Below, in pieces: positions 193 to 8,075 of a stretch of 64,000 bases of DNA. The notes under the pieces are model-generated. The model did no database searches. It had not been told where the DNA came from and was given only the letters and a program-made list of their open reading frames with translations. The stretch covers positions 1-64,000 of the forward strand of contig JAOIOC010000003.1 of the NCBI GenBank assembly GCA_028140145.1. Reading direction: 5' to 3'. Positions within the stretch are counted from its first letter, which is position 1, and every line of letters starts with the position of its first letter. This DNA comes from SAR86 cluster bacterium. GTDB taxonomy: Bacteria; Pseudomonadota; Gammaproteobacteria; Magnimaribacterales; AG-339-G14. The position numbers and the translations under genes are program-made.

Positions 193-933
193 ATGAAAAA
201 AATAATACTATTTGTGACATTAATTGGATTACCAATTAGTCTTTTTGCACAGGAAGTGCCAGATCCGCTAACGGCAGGATATAGCCAATGTAAATTCTTA
301 CCTGGAAAAGGTATGGAATCTCTTGAAGAATATGTAGAGCTTTTTAATGAGGAGTTAGATAAAGCAGGGATTGAAATGGGTTCAGCAATGTTGATGCCGT
401 TTTTTAAAACTAATATTTCTGAATACGATGTTTTGTGGGTAAACACTTGGCAAGATAATGCACAAGCAGGTAAAGCAATGGATTGGTGGCTTTCAGATGC
501 CGGCGAAAAATCCAGAGACGCTTGGCCAATGTTTTGCGATACTCAGATTTTGACTTATCAATGGTGGATGGAAGCGGTTACCGATCGTGATGATTTCGAA
601 GGTCAAAATTTCAGTGCTTCTTATTACACTTGTAATTTAAGAGATGGAAAAAATCTTAGTGACGCCTACCTAGCATCTAATGCAGAACTTAAATTAGCTC
701 ATTCAAAAGGTTCTAAATCTAGCTCTGTTCTTATCAGGCCAGCTTCAGGGACAAATGCAGCTGAATTTCCATTTGATTTTGTAAGACTGTTCACAAATCC
801 TTCATTTACAAATTGGGGTGAAGCTGTAGACGGTTGGTACGATAATGTTAGAGGCTCAGCAGAAAGTAACAAAGTAAGAGATACCTACGATTGCAATGGG
901 TCGACTTTATTTACTGGAAGGATAGTTCGTTAG
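193..933 (+). CDS. Secreted protein of unknown function with two internal repeats
   Basis: Signal peptide MKKIILFVTLIGLPISLFA; RBS aggaga; internal repeat (YSQCKFLPGKG / YYTCNLRDGKN). Confidence 0.85.
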   Translation: MKKIILFVTLIGLPISLFAQEVPDPLTAGYSQCKFLPGKGMESLEEYVELFNEELDKAGIEMGSAMLMPFFKTNISEYDVLWVNTWQDNAQAGKAMDWWLSDAGEKSRDAWPMFCDTQILTYQWWMEAVTDRDDFEGQNFSASYYTCNLRDGKNLSDAYLASNAELKLAHSKGSKSSSVLIRPASGTNAAEFPFDFVRLFTNPSFTNWGEAVDGWYDNVRGSAESNKVRDTYDCNGSTLFTGRIVR

Positions 934-945
934 CTGTTTGAGGAT

Positions 946-977
946 AAAAAAGGAAGGCTAATGCCTTCCTTTTTTTT
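946..977. terminator. Bidirectional intrinsic terminator between convergent genes
   Basis: aaaaaGGAAGGC taat GCCTTCCtttttttt hairpin with A and T tracts on both sides. Confidence 0.85.
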
Positions 978-983
978 CCAACT

Positions 984-1685
984 TTAATATTGAATTAAAG
1001 TGTATCCAGCATCGACTGTGATAATTTCTCTAATTGATTCTACTTCTCTAGCAAATCTCTTAAAGTTATCACTTGCTTGACTTACGCTCAAAGCTTCAGT
1101 CATTTCAGCCATTGACGATCCAAAAATATAAGCAAAGTGAGTCATTCCATCGACTCCTCCTGCCATAATTCTATTCACGCCGTAGCTTCCAGAAGCTAAG
1201 CCGTCTTCTGTTTGTGCTTCCATCATCTTCTTGTAGGCTGCAGCATACTTAGCTTCATCGGTCACCTTCATTTGCCAAAGCATGTAAACATTTGCTTCAG
1301 GTGCAGTTCCTCCGGCATAGATTGGAGTGGACAAAGCCTGATATTCTTGACTAATAACTCCAACTCCATCGGCAAGAAATTTTTGAGCTGCTGCACAAGT
1401 TTGAAATGTTTGGCGCACATTATCCATGCCTTTTCCATTTTGATAATTAAAAGTGAGAATGTGCGAGGCTCCGTTATCACCATTAAAATGAGGCTCGAAC
1501 AAAGTAACTCGAGCTGGCATTTCTTTGGCGCAGTCGGAGGCCATGAATGTTTGTAAAGATTCCACCACGGCAGCAGGATTAGAAGTTGAAAATCCATAAT
1601 GCGCTGTCATCGGTGGAGAATCATGACCATCCGCAAAAAGATTGACTGCAGTGATACTCATCATAAGTAGTAAAAAATTTTTCAT
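984..1685 (-). CDS. Secreted protein of unknown function, related repeat family
   Basis: Signal peptide MKNFLLLMMSITAVNLFADG; similar length and two-lobe layout to neighbours. Confidence 0.8.
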   Translation of the reverse strand: MKNFLLLMMSITAVNLFADGHDSPPMTAHYGFSTSNPAAVVESLQTFMASDCAKEMPARVTLFEPHFNGDNGASHILTFNYQNGKGMDNVRQTFQTCAAAQKFLADGVGVISQEYQALSTPIYAGGTAPEANVYMLWQMKVTDEAKYAAAYKKMMEAQTEDGLASGSYGVNRIMAGGVDGMTHFAYIFGSSMAEMTEALSVSQASDNFKRFAREVESIREIITVDAGYTLIQY

Positions 1686-1688
1686 ATT

Positions 1689-2387
1689 TTACTCAGCCGT
1701 GTAAAGAATTTCGCATTCTTCAATAGAGTCTCTTTCAAAAGAATCAACCAAAGATTGCATAGCCACAAAAGCTTGACTCCAAGATGCCCCGGCATAACCT
1801 TTATCAAACATAGCTCCCATTGATTTACCATCTTTTGCAAATCCTCTGACCATTAAGGTGTTACCTTCAGGACCACCGCCAATAGGCGCAAAAACAGCTA
1901 ATTGGAAATCTTCACCTGCAGCCTTCATAGCAGCCTCAAGAACTTCTGTAGACTGTAAAAAAGCCACAACGTTTTCAGGTTTAATAGACACCCTGGTAAC
2001 TCTTTCAAATCCTGGCGTTAACTCGAAAGGAGTTAAGGTTTTCCAGAAAGATGTATACTTTATTTTTCTCATGTTTTTTAGAGCTGTTGGAGCAGCATAA
2101 GGATTATAAGTAGTGGCATTGGCCATCATATCTTCTAGCGAAGCAAATCCATTCCAAATAAACATTTCACCAGGATAATCATGACCGGAAACAGTCATGC
2201 AATATCCACTTACATCTCCACCACCTGCTGCTAAGAACTGAGGATTTTCCTTCAAATAATCGATATATTCGTAAGGATCTTCAGCTTTTACATGAAAAGT
2301 AGTAAACCCACCTTCTGGAGGTCCTTCCTGAGACCATAAGGTACTAGTAGCAAATATAGCTACTAAAATATTCAATAAAATTTTCAT
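1689..2387 (-). CDS. Secreted protein, tandem paralog A
   Basis: Start trimmed from ORF track to MKILLNILVAIFATSTLWSQ (signal peptide, RBS taggaga); shares EYIDYLKEN, GEMFxWNGFxS, SFWK, ILYTAE with the next ORF. Confidence 0.85.
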   Translation of the reverse strand: MKILLNILVAIFATSTLWSQEGPPEGGFTTFHVKAEDPYEYIDYLKENPQFLAAGGGDVSGYCMTVSGHDYPGEMFIWNGFASLEDMMANATTYNPYAAPTALKNMRKIKYTSFWKTLTPFELTPGFERVTRVSIKPENVVAFLQSTEVLEAAMKAAGEDFQLAVFAPIGGGPEGNTLMVRGFAKDGKSMGAMFDKGYAGASWSQAFVAMQSLVDSFERDSIEECEILYTAE

Positions 2388-2401
2388 AATTTCTCCTAAA
2401 A

Positions 2402-3097
2402 TTATTCGGCAGTATAAATAACCTGACACGACTCATACGTATCAGTAACTACTTCATCTGCCAGTGAAAGTAGTTTTAAATAAATCGGCATCCAGCTAGT
2501 TCCTTCGTAAGCTTTATCAATAATTGCACCAGCTTCTTCAGAATTAGGATGTGAACCTCTAATATGGAATTCTTGTTCGGAATAACCACCACCAAAAGGT
2601 TGAAAAATTCCAAGATTAAAATCAATCCCATCAGCTTTAATTGCCTTTTCAAAAGCAATTGAAGTAGCTAGGTATTCTGGTAAATTTTCTCTTGCTATCT
2701 TAATTCTATTTAACCTTTCAAAAGAAGAGGGACGAATTGGAAAGTCCTTTAGCGGTTTCCAGAAAGTTGAATACTTAACTTCCCTCAGTTTTTGTAAGGC
2801 TCTAGGCGCAGAAGCAGGATCATAAGAATCTCCTCCTTTCATAGCCTCAGCCATTGAACTAAAACCATTCCAAACAAACATTTCTCCAGTATAACTGTTA
2901 CCTGTTCTTGTGACGCAGACTCCAGCCATATCAGAACCAATTGCTTCAAAGGCTTCAGTATTTTCCTTTAAATAATCTATGTATTCTTGAGGATCGTCAG
3001 CTTGAACATGAAGCGAGGAAAAAGCACCTTCGGGTGCATTCTGGGCAAATGTAAAACTGGATAAGACCAGAATTGCCGTAAGTTGTAAAAATTTCAT
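2402..3097 (-). CDS. Secreted protein, tandem paralog B
   Basis: Signal peptide; colinear similarity to 1689..2387. Confidence 0.88.
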   Translation of the reverse strand: MKFLQLTAILVLSSFTFAQNAPEGAFSSLHVQADDPQEYIDYLKENTEAFEAIGSDMAGVCVTRTGNSYTGEMFVWNGFSSMAEAMKGGDSYDPASAPRALQKLREVKYSTFWKPLKDFPIRPSSFERLNRIKIARENLPEYLATSIAFEKAIKADGIDFNLGIFQPFGGGYSEQEFHIRGSHPNSEEAGAIIDKAYEGTSWMPIYLKLLSLADEVVTDTYESCQVIYTAE

Positions 3098-3177
3098 AAA
3101 TCTCTCCTAAAAAATTTTTTACGGCCCTTAACTATAGTAAAAAATCTATTGTTATGGAATGCTAAAATGAAACTAAT

Positions 3178-3993
3178 ATGAAAACTAACAAATCGTTAAT
3201 TTTTTCAGCAATTTTGATAATTCTTTTTTTACTTAGCTGTCAGAATGAACTTACTGAAAATGAGGATAGAGTAGTTATAGATATCGATACGATGGAAGAC
3301 GTATTTCTTCAAAAAAGCGGGATAAATGTCTATAAAACCTGCACTAAAGGAGAAGATTTTTCTAAAAAAAATCTTGAAGTATTGTTGAGAGGATGGAATG
3401 AGGTGATGGAAGAGTTAAAAAATCCATCGGTTAGGTCATCTTTGTTTCAGAAGAATAGAACGGAAACTCTTATTTGGAGCGAGACATGGAGTGACTCTGA
3501 AACAAGAGATGAATTTAAGTTGATCTGGCAAGAGCTTTATGAGGAGAGGTGGAACTACAGATTTAATAAAGTTTTAGCTTGTGATGAGGAAATTGAAGAA
3601 GTAACTGAAATAGTTTCATCGAAAGAGCCAGATGTAGAGTGGCTAGGTCTTCCGCCTCATTATTCAATGTTCGTGTCTTGCAATTTCAAAGACGATAACG
3701 ATCTTGATTTAGCTTTAGCGATTCTCTCAACTGTAGATAATGCAAATCCTGCAATTTTTTCGAATTCACATCGCTATAACGTAGAAATTACTGATGGCAA
3801 TAGATTAATATTTTTAGGAAATGAAAGATTTGATTTCATTTGGAGTAACTTTTGGTTGAATAAAAAGGAACGGGATGATACTAAAAAAAGGTTGAACGAA
3901 AGTTTTATTTTTGAGAATTTATCACTCTATTTCAATTGTAATGTTGATGAATTTTCATACGAACCCATTAAATCAATAATTCAAGATATTTAA
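3178..3993 (+). CDS. Lipoprotein distantly similar to the upstream secreted family
   Basis: Lipobox LLSC; FVSCNFKDDNDLDLAL and FDFIWSNFW segments resemble YTCNLRDGKN/FDFVRLF of 193..933. Confidence 0.75.
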   Translation: MKTNKSLIFSAILIILFLLSCQNELTENEDRVVIDIDTMEDVFLQKSGINVYKTCTKGEDFSKKNLEVLLRGWNEVMEELKNPSVRSSLFQKNRTETLIWSETWSDSETRDEFKLIWQELYEERWNYRFNKVLACDEEIEEVTEIVSSKEPDVEWLGLPPHYSMFVSCNFKDDNDLDLALAILSTVDNANPAIFSNSHRYNVEITDGNRLIFLGNERFDFIWSNFWLNKKERDDTKKRLNESFIFENLSLYFNCNVDEFSYEPIKSIIQDI

Positions 3994-5047: not shown

Positions 5048-6475
5048 ATGTTTGAAAACATAAAATTTACTAATCCTTTTTCCAAATTGCCAAGTAATTT
5101 TTATACGAAGCAAAGTTGGTCTTCATTTGATCAACCTTTTTTGCTTCACTTTAATTATGACTTAGCAAAAAGTTTAGGCATTCAAGACGATCCAGAAGAA
5201 TTAATGCAAATTTTTAACGGAAGCAAAAATTTCATAAAATCCTCTCCCCTAGCAATGGTATACGGGGGCCATCAGTTTGGTAATTGGGTCAATCAGCTTG
5301 GCGACGGCCGGGGAATCCTCTTTGGCCAAATTGATTCGTCTGAAGGACTTGTTGATCTTCATATTAAAGGTGCGGGAAAAACTCCTTATTCAAGGTTTGG
5401 TGATGGTAGAGCTGTTATCCGCTCATCGGTAAGAGAACATTTGTGCGGCGAAGCCATGTTTGGGTTAGGTATTCCAAGCTCAAGATCTTTAATGCTTTTC
5501 GGCAGCAATGAACTTGTGATGCGTGAAGAAACTGAACGTGGAGCAATGATTGTTAGAACTGCTAAGACTCATATCAGATTTGGACACTTTGAATATTTTC
5601 ATCACAATAAAATTGCAGATGGCGTAAAAACATTACTTGATCATGTAATTGACTGCTACTACCCAGATACAAAACAAGATTCTGATAAATACTTATTATT
5701 CTTTGATGCAACAGTGAAAAAAACAGCTCATATGGTTTCAGCTTGGCAAAGTGTTGGATTCAATCATGGAGTTATGAATACCGATAATATGTCCATTCTC
5801 GGTGAGACTTTTGATTACGGTCCGTACGCTTTCATGGAAACTTATAACCCTAACTACATTTGCAACCATACCGATTCACAAGGACGCTATAGCTTTTCAA
5901 ATCAGCCAAGCATTGCGGAATGGAATTGCTATGCTCTTGCCTCCGCTTTGATTGACCTTTTCAGTGAGACTGAGTTAAGAGATATTCTGAATAAATTTAA
6001 TGATTATTTTTACGATTCCTTGATTGAAAAATATCGAAAGAAACTTGGTTTTAAAAGCGCTCTGGATAGCGACTACGATCTTCTTCTTGGGCTGTTTGCG
6101 ATTATGGAAACAGAAAAACTTGACTATACTAATACCTTCAGGGATCTATCTATGATCATCACTTCTTCAGACGATTTAAAATTATCTGGTAACTTTTCCT
6201 CTTGGCTTGCTTCCTATAAAGCTAGATTAGGCAAAGATGAAAACAACATTGAGCAATCATTATTATTGATGAATAAAAATAATCCAAAATATATTCTCAG
6301 AAACTATCTAGCACAATCAGCTATTGAAGATGCAGAGGAAGGAAAATCAGAGAAAATAGATCAATTGGTTAAAGTGTTAAGCAACCCTTTTGATGATCTG
6401 GGCAAGTCGATGGAGAAATATTGTAAGCCTGCTCCAAAGGAACACCAAAACCAGCAGCTTAGTTGCTCGTCTTAG
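5048..6475 (+). CDS. selO: Protein adenylyltransferase SelO (YdiU/UPF0061)
   Basis: MVYGGHQFGNWVNQLGDGRGILFGQ, KGAGKTPYSRFGDGRAVIRSSVRE, C-terminal CSS. Confidence 0.95.
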   Translation: MFENIKFTNPFSKLPSNFYTKQSWSSFDQPFLLHFNYDLAKSLGIQDDPEELMQIFNGSKNFIKSSPLAMVYGGHQFGNWVNQLGDGRGILFGQIDSSEGLVDLHIKGAGKTPYSRFGDGRAVIRSSVREHLCGEAMFGLGIPSSRSLMLFGSNELVMREETERGAMIVRTAKTHIRFGHFEYFHHNKIADGVKTLLDHVIDCYYPDTKQDSDKYLLFFDATVKKTAHMVSAWQSVGFNHGVMNTDNMSILGETFDYGPYAFMETYNPNYICNHTDSQGRYSFSNQPSIAEWNCYALASALIDLFSETELRDILNKFNDYFYDSLIEKYRKKLGFKSALDSDYDLLLGLFAIMETEKLDYTNTFRDLSMIITSSDDLKLSGNFSSWLASYKARLGKDENNIEQSLLLMNKNNPKYILRNYLAQSAIEDAEEGKSEKIDQLVKVLSNPFDDLGKSMEKYCKPAPKEHQNQQLSCSS

Positions 6476-6593
6476 CAGATAGAGAAGAGAAACAAGGCCT
6501 GCAAACACTTTTTAATCCCATCAGACCGTGGCGGTCCTTTTCAAAAAAATGCAGAGGAAGTTTCTTTTTGCAGTTAGCGCAGCGGTTAGTCAC
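6459..6593 (-). CDS. Small putative zinc-ribbon protein (44 aa), GTG start
   Basis: Hand translation MTNRCANCKKKLPLHFFEKDRHGLMGLKSVCRPCFSSLSAKTSN; CxxC...CxxC; overlaps the 3' end of selO antisense. Confidence 0.55.
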   Translation of the reverse strand: MTNRCANCKKKLPLHFFEKDRHGLMGLKSVCRPCFSSLSAKTSN

Positions 6594-6594
6594 G

Positions 6595-6696
6595 CTATAT
6601 GATAACTTGAGATATAAAGTATCCGATAGAGAAACCTGTTGTAAAGAACAACATGATCAATAGGTTTCTGAGTTTTTGAAAGGTTTCGTAATCCAT
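6595..6696 (-). CDS. Small single-TM protein (33 aa)
   Basis: Hand translation MDYETFQKLRNLLIMLFFTTGFSIGYFISQVII; stop is 1 nt from the GTG of the zinc-ribbon ORF. Confidence 0.5.
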   Translation of the reverse strand: MDYETFQKLRNLLIMLFFTTGFSIGYFISQVII

Positions 6697-6713
6697 AATG
6701 TTCTGTTTAAGAT

Positions 6714-6753
6714 TAGACCCTTCAGGTATGTATTGGGAGAACTGAAGGGTCTA
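6714..6753. repeat. 12-bp perfect inverted repeat, 16-nt loop
   Basis: TAGACCCTTCAG ... CTGAAGGGTCTA; no T tract, so not a standard terminator. Confidence 0.8.
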
Positions 6754-6781
6754 GGGGGAAATGTTCTTATAATTAGTTTGA

Positions 6782-6886
6782 TTAAACTAGGCTAAAACTT
6801 GCCAATCCTAGGCTGCCAATGTAAATCAAAAATCCCAAGCAGAAAGCTAATCCTACGCTTCCGGTGAAAACTTGGAAATTAATCAT
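6782..6886 (-). CDS. Small hydrophobic TM protein (34 aa)
   Basis: Hand translation MINFQVFTGSVGLAFCLGFLIYIGSLGLASFSLV; SD caggag 8 nt upstream of ATG. Confidence 0.6.
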   Translation of the reverse strand: MINFQVFTGSVGLAFCLGFLIYIGSLGLASFSLV

Positions 6887-7073
6887 CTTTTATACTCCTG
6901 TTTTTAGTTAATATGTCTTAAATAACAGGAGCATTATATGTAATGGATAATCTCAAAATGATCGAAAAGAGTGCAATTTTGTGAAATGCAGGCAAAATAA
7001 TATTGAATTTATATAGATGTAACTCAAAGTTATTAAAAAAGCTTTTTTTTATGCTTTTTTGGGAATATTAAAT

Positions 7074-8075
7074 ATGAAAAGAATAGAAATAGAAAAACCT
7101 GGCGGGCTAGATAAACTTAAATTTGTAGATGCAGAAAAACCAAAGCCTTTGAGCGATGAGGTTCTTTTGAAAGTTTCGCACAGCAGCCTAAATTATCACG
7201 ACCTTCTTGTCGCTATTGGTTTTATTCCTACTGAAGATAAGAGAGTACCTCTTGGTGATGCTGGCTGTACCGTTGAAGAAATCGGAGAGTCGGTCAATGA
7301 ATGGAAAACCGGAGATCAAGTGATGAGCGTGAGTTTCCCGAGATGGATAGATGGTCCACCAAAATATGAATACTTTAGCTTCATTGGAGATAACGAAGAC
7401 GGTTATGGAAGTGAGTACATGACCATTAAAGCTAATGCATTGACTCCGATTCCTAATGATTGGTCTTTGCAAGAAGCAGCTACATTACCTTGCGCAGGAC
7501 TCACTGCTTGGCGAGCAATAATGGAAGAAGGAAACCTTCAACCAAACGAAACAATTTTGGTCCAAGGGTCAGGCGGTGTTTCCATTTTTGCTCTTCAATT
7601 AGCTAAGGCTCATGGAGCAAATGTAATTGCGACGACCTCTTCTGATGAAAAAGCTGAAAAATTAAAATCCCTAGGCGCTGATGAAGTAGTTAATTACAAA
7701 GAACATCCTCAGTGGGGAAAAGAAGTCTTGAAGTTAACGGCGAATGAAGGGGTAGATCATGTCGTTGAAGTTGCAGGAGGAGATTCTTTTAATGAATCAA
7801 TTCGATGTGCCAAATTAGGCGGCCATATTTCCATCATAGGAATCTTAGACGGCAATACCAGTGAAATACTATTGCCAAGACTTTTCGCTAAGCAACTTCG
7901 AACTTCAGGAATATCCATGGGCAGCCAAAAATCTCAAAGAGATATGGTTGACTTCCTTAATGGGACTGATATCAGGCCAATAATTAGCGATACTTTTAAA
8001 TTAGAGAAGTTAGGAGAAGCGTTTCAATTTCAAATGGATAATAAACATTTTGGCAAAATCTCAATTGAGATTTGA
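7074..8075 (+). CDS. Zinc-type alcohol dehydrogenase / MDR family oxidoreductase
   Basis: GroES-like N-term, ILVQGSGGVSIFALQLAKAHGANVIATTSS Rossmann motif. Confidence 0.9.
   Translation: MKRIEIEKPGGLDKLKFVDAEKPKPLSDEVLLKVSHSSLNYHDLLVAIGFIPTEDKRVPLGDAGCTVEEIGESVNEWKTGDQVMSVSFPRWIDGPPKYEYFSFIGDNEDGYGSEYMTIKANALTPIPNDWSLQEAATLPCAGLTAWRAIMEEGNLQPNETILVQGSGGVSIFALQLAKAHGANVIATTSSDEKAEKLKSLGADEVVNYKEHPQWGKEVLKLTANEGVDHVVEVAGGDSFNESIRCAKLGGHISIIGILDGNTSEILLPRLFAKQLRTSGISMGSQKSQRDMVDFLNGTDIRPIISDTFKLEKLGEAFQFQMDNKHFGKISIEI

Follow-up and report, generated by a model that had tools for sequence, protein, structure and literature searches.

Small single-pass membrane proteins of bacteria such as AcrZ, KdpF and CydX comprise about 30-50 aa, form one helix and are easily overlooked by annotation. 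VcdRP of Vibrio cholerae is a short free-standing transcript with an ORF of about 30 aa, a conserved cytosine run and a Rho-independent terminator; four cytosines pair with the start sites of its targets, for which Hfq is required, and its peptide VcdP binds citrate synthase (PMC8672173). The type I toxin mRNA aapA3 encodes a small hydrophobic peptide and shows constrained synonymous sites (PMC6733600).

Here, we relate these systems to a locus from a SAR86-like genome (1.10 Mb, 50 contigs, 72% complete), to which, judged by selO, SAR86 single-cell genomes are the nearest named relatives. The window, i.e., the whole stretch of DNA that was analysed, has a length of 64,000 nt. We compared it with 40 genomes (mostly draft assemblies) of its family, denoted f1, which includes the window's genus (g1) and the genera g2, g3 and g4. 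The locus is the space between selO and a quinone-oxidoreductase-like gene. For this gap, an earlier note had proposed a cluster of three minus-strand micro-ORFs, and all of them are present where it had placed them: a 34-aa membrane peptide with a good SD (TM34; AGGAG is found 8 nt before its ATG), a 33-aa membrane peptide (TM33) and a 44-aa CxxC/CxxC protein with GTG start (Zn44), the latter being antisense to the 3' end of selO. The spacing of 1 nt between the TM33 stop (6595-6597) and the Zn44 GTG (6591-6593) is found as well. Beyond what had been described, the locus holds a promoter-like site, a C-run, a terminator-like hairpin and a low synonymous divergence of TM34. In g1, the minus-strand order is -10 TATAAT, SD AGGAG, TM34, C-run, hairpin, TM33 and Zn44. 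Respective coordinates are provided in Table 1. Elsewhere in the window (193-3993), five adjoining genes (193-933 +, 984-1685 -, 1689-2429 -, 2402-3097 -, 3178-3993 +) code for proteins that look alike, measure 231-271 aa and start with signal-peptide-like sequences, apparently as members of a local paralogous family.

Table 1. Features of the locus and its flanking genes (window positions).
Feature	Position	Strand	Description	Evidence or remark
selO	5048..6475	+	475-aa ORF	convergent with Zn44
Zn44	6459..6593	-	44-aa C4 zinc-finger protein, CxxC-x22-CxxC, GTG start	overlaps the final 17 nt of selO (3' end)
TM33	6595..6696	-	33-aa single-pass membrane peptide MDYETFQKLRNLLIMLFFTTGFSIGYFISQVII, ATG start	conservation, dN/dS
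Hairpin	6714..6753	-	arms 6742-6753 and 6714-6725, 12 bp	fold -18.7 kcal/mol
C-run	6754..6758	-	5'-UUUCCCCC after the TM34 stop	conserved in every genome
TM34	6782..6886	-	34-aa single-pass membrane peptide MINFQVFTGSVGLAFCLGFLIYIGSLGLASFSLV, ATG start	conservation, dN/dS, AF2
SD of TM34	6895..6899	-	AGGAG	GGAG at the same place in 32/32 genomes with complete 5' region
-10-like site	6933..6938	-	TATAAT, candidate TM34 promoter	kept in 7/7 g1 genomes
Quinone-oxidoreductase-like gene	7074..8075	+		divergent from TM34; control region common to both

All three ORFs show dN/dS values of about 0.04-0.18, i.e., purifying selection at the protein level. For TM34, the values are 0.105 (g1), 0.112 (g2), 0.118 (g3) and 0.180 (g4), for Zn44 0.081, 0.108, 0.039 and 0.150, respectively, and for TM33 0.065 (genome G001 left out). 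When TM34 and TM33 are read in other frames as a control, dN/dS is at least 0.46 or there is zero synonymous change. Furthermore, the variable columns within g1 are biased to codon position 3 for TM34 (P = 0.013), TM33 (9/12 columns; P = 0.004) and Zn44 (P = 0.0025), and both order and strand of TM34 and Zn44 are kept across the four genera. The earlier note had named unconserved frames or stop-rich alignments as grounds against its proposal; what we find is purifying selection on all three frames. We are thus highly confident that TM34, TM33 and Zn44 are real protein-coding micro-genes with the layout given above. The three genes of the proposed cluster are therefore real, but they are layered and do not form one ancient unit: TM34 is family-wide and was never seen broken, Zn44 is family-wide and repeatedly lost, and TM33 is limited to g1 (97-100% identity in 6 genomes).

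A profile search for TM34 among 203 genomes of the SAR86 order yielded 33 matches, all within f1 (33/40) and single copy each, while the other SAR86 families of the order gave no convincing match (one weak, E 0.005, with a stop). Among f1 genomes that are at least 90% complete, TM34 is found in 11/13. In one of the other two, G019, the contig breaks off 385 nt upstream of the oxidoreductase gene, and in the second, G014, the oxidoreductase was likewise not found. TM34 identity is 91-100% within g1 and about 33-50% in other genera. The gene is always located directly upstream of Zn44 or of its expected place, and the oxidoreductase is its divergent neighbour in 32/32 genomes with complete 5' region. 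A repeated element, about ATAAAAAAGCTTTTTTNATAACTTTTNG, is found in the control region between the two (6941-7070) and in its g2 and g4 counterparts, with two copies in g2 and g4 and one in g1 near the oxidoreductase; otherwise it is rare genome-wide.

The predicted TM34 structure (AF2) is a single helix of residues 2-33 (pLDDT 86), uncharged and with a KD19 hydropathy maximum of 2.1. Invariant residues are M1, G9, G12, C16, Y22, G24 and F31, and G27 is nearly so; this invariant small-residue face is suited to packing against another helix. TM34 thus resembles AcrZ, KdpF and CydX in having one helix and a similar size class. In contrast to these, it is without a sequence family match and occurs in one SAR86 family only among the searched genomes. 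Neither TM peptide matched a family in Pfam, NCBIfam or PHROGs, and TM34 was not detected in viral contigs.

With regard to the TM34 transcript, the -10-like hexamer is also found at comparable positions in two further genera; a simple sigma-70 scan of the window did not call the site. A search for a regulon of the upstream motif TTTTTNATAACTTT gave at most one extra site per genome besides the TM34 locus, and an Rfam search (gathering threshold; E<=1) returned no usable match. The g1 C-run UUUCCCCC matches UUCUCCCCCC in the other three genera. Downstream, the hairpin itself is kept while its stem sequences vary between genera. In g2-g4, the hairpin at this position differs in sequence from that of g1 and precedes a U-tract, except for G013, where A's are found; that is, apart from G013, it is an ordinary intrinsic terminator, at which the TM34 mRNA would end. 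In g1, no U-tract follows the hairpin and a terminator scan finds none, which points to read-through into TM33 and Zn44, such that transcription may run on to give a tricistronic micro-operon. Therein, TM33 and Zn44 would be coupled through their 1-nt gap.

Zn44 has relatives in all four f1 genera (42-98% identity), with aligned ATG or GTG starts in the other genera. Intact copies share 13 invariant residues including the four cysteines. HMM comparison relates it to a C4 zinc module (PHROG 1035, 2255, 2633 and 5558), with best E-values of 3e-5 for the window's Zn44 and 2e-6 for its g3 relative. The module of phage endonuclease VII/HNH proteins and of the Lar-like PHROG 5558 shows the same CxxC-x22-CxxC spacing and the pattern LPxxxF..K..R..MGL..(V/I)C..C. 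In contrast to the phage endonuclease VII/HNH proteins, Zn44 is standalone, 40-44 aa long, chromosomal and syntenic. It has no nuclease domain, and the ORF stops at 40-44 aa in all genera. In viral contigs, one such module was found, which is part of a longer phage protein of about 165 aa (contig L314, 3001-3114) whose C-terminal zinc module is 39% identical to Zn44. Searches against Pfam, NCBIfam and PDB sequences assigned no family to Zn44. Its predicted structure is of moderate confidence only (pLDDT 76 for the best of five models, 52-58 for the rest), and all matches of the fold search have E-values of at least 0.85, none being significant. Zn44 is broken or absent next to an intact TM34 in G001 (TGA), G013, G016, G017, G026, G037 (Cys lost) and G038; in G024, too, one Cys is lost with TM34 intact. 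As these genomes are mostly draft assemblies, single nonsense changes could partly be errors. The loss of Zn44 without loss of TM34 in 7 genomes argues against one pathway common to both.

As a gene, TM34 is specific to this lineage: it encodes a small hydrophobic peptide and has a promoter-like site, an SD and a 3' hairpin of its own. As to its role, we favour a protein-level explanation. TM34 would insert as one helix, presumably N-in where a genus has an N-terminal Lys/Arg, and its face of G9, G12, C16, G24 and nearly G27 may pack against a larger membrane protein, the activity or stability of which it would tune in the manner of AcrZ, KdpF or CydX. Zn44 would be a free-standing cytoplasmic C4 zinc finger, its probable ligand being nucleic acid or a protein, and would serve an accessory, dispensable function. 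Taken as a whole, i.e., three micro-genes, tricistronic read-through in g1, TM34 as a membrane-protein regulator and Zn44 as accessory zinc finger, we judge this explanation slightly better than an even bet; its functional part remains tentative, with the chances somewhat against it.

A purely protein-level role leaves one observation unaccounted for, which counts against the protein reading: the synonymous sites of TM34 are constrained. It should be noted that the TM34 ORF is short; the following tests are approximate. In all four genera, the synonymous divergence of TM34 is lower than in any 30-codon window of the oxidoreductase (0/117 overlapping windows). It is likewise below every such window of ribosomal protein S12, the deepest-sampled genus included. 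In a codon bootstrap of TM34 vs. S12, this results in P<5e-5 for g3 and P=0.03 for g1. For g4, represented by three close genomes, TM34 is below S12 (P=0.0008), while the comparison with the oxidoreductase is not significant (P=0.16). Among these close g4 genomes (G011, G020, G023), synonymous divergence is higher for S12 (0.34) than for the oxidoreductase (0.19), perhaps due to recombination. S12 is a highly expressed gene, and high expression alone is therefore not readily an explanation of the TM34 constraint. Energy z-scores of the TM34 ORF RNA are near 0, so no unusually stable fold accounts for it either.

This constraint would fit a dual-function RNA, in which the TM34 mRNA encodes a peptide and additionally base-pairs like VcdRP, its C-run UUCUCCC(CCC) binding G-rich start regions. 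The order of parts agrees with VcdRP (PMC8672173), i.e., promoter (a promoter-like site in TM34), ORF of 30-34 aa (under selection in TM34), conserved C-run and terminator, in place of which g1 has a hairpin without U-tract. Nucleotide conservation fits this as well, since it spans the region from SD to terminator (0.84-0.98 in g3) and then falls (mostly 0.2-0.7). The C-run is conserved and mostly single-stranded, being on average less paired than the remaining transcript. In g1, the core UUCUCCC, which precedes the terminator in other genera, is kept within the hairpin loop (6735-6741) with an unpaired probability of 0.86-0.97. The longer C-run motif TTCTCCCCCC is unique to the TM34 locus in G009 and G020. 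However, TM34 differs from VcdRP in that its peptide is a hydrophobic helix, its C-run is longer, and the U-tract is missing in g1. Furthermore, a search for the Hfq domain, which is positive for E. coli and further controls, found no match in 40/40 f1 genomes, such that a family-wide loss of Hfq is possible. Nor did the search for GGGGAGAA or GGGAGAA before ATG reveal a start-site target common to genera, where a minority of the GGGAGAA matches was individually inspected. The clearest cross-genus candidate, GGGGAGAAACCCCTCATG, is located inside a coding sequence (MAWGETPHD...), and the match therefore reflects protein conservation. Together with the non-significant g4 comparison, this makes base pairing by the TM34 mRNA improbable in our view, if by no means negligible. 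We are similarly, and marginally more, doubtful of its broader form, namely that a genome-reduced marine lineage without Hfq possesses a dual-function RNA of its own, with C-run and codons fixed by RNA regulation.

A further alternative concerns g1 only, where TM33 and Zn44 could be one functional unit apart from TM34, i.e., a membrane peptide with a cytoplasmic zinc partner. Beside the 1-nt junction, this is suggested by G001, in which TM33 has a stop at codon 3 and Zn44 is also broken while TM34 is intact, and by the other six g1 genomes with the locus, in which both are intact. On the other hand, three other genera have Zn44 without TM33, and the co-decay could equal the simple loss of a common transcript. 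We thus consider such a unit unlikely.

A type I toxin-antitoxin pair, with TM34 as toxin and its mRNA silenced by structure, has far less in its favour. TM34 does share with mRNAs of the aapA3 type a small hydrophobic peptide and constrained codons (PMC6733600). It shows no sign of an antisense RNA (three of four genera have no conserved antisense -10 within TM34) and is single copy, vertically kept and never seen broken. Self-inhibition by pairing of SD and C-run was rejected for g2 and g3, where shuffled UTRs show a higher pairing probability; in g1 and g4, the comparison gave mixed results. We thus hold the toxin reading to be very unlikely. Chance ORFs within an AT-rich gap, as might be supposed from short ORFs, a GTG start and TM peptides without database family, are already refuted by dN/dS, frame controls, aligned starts and family-wide conservation, which leaves this reading virtually no probability.

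Of the locus, TM34 is the most interesting part: this membrane micro-gene occurs family-wide as a single copy and shows constraint at the RNA level. If this constraint reflects regulation, it would mean RNA-based control in bacteria where Hfq was not found. SAR86 bacteria are a major group of the ocean, have reduced genomes and are for the most part uncultured. That a 34-codon gene is unmatched in family libraries, located beside a redox enzyme and kept wherever the f1 locus is assembled suggests that real genes are missing from the gene catalogues of SAR86.
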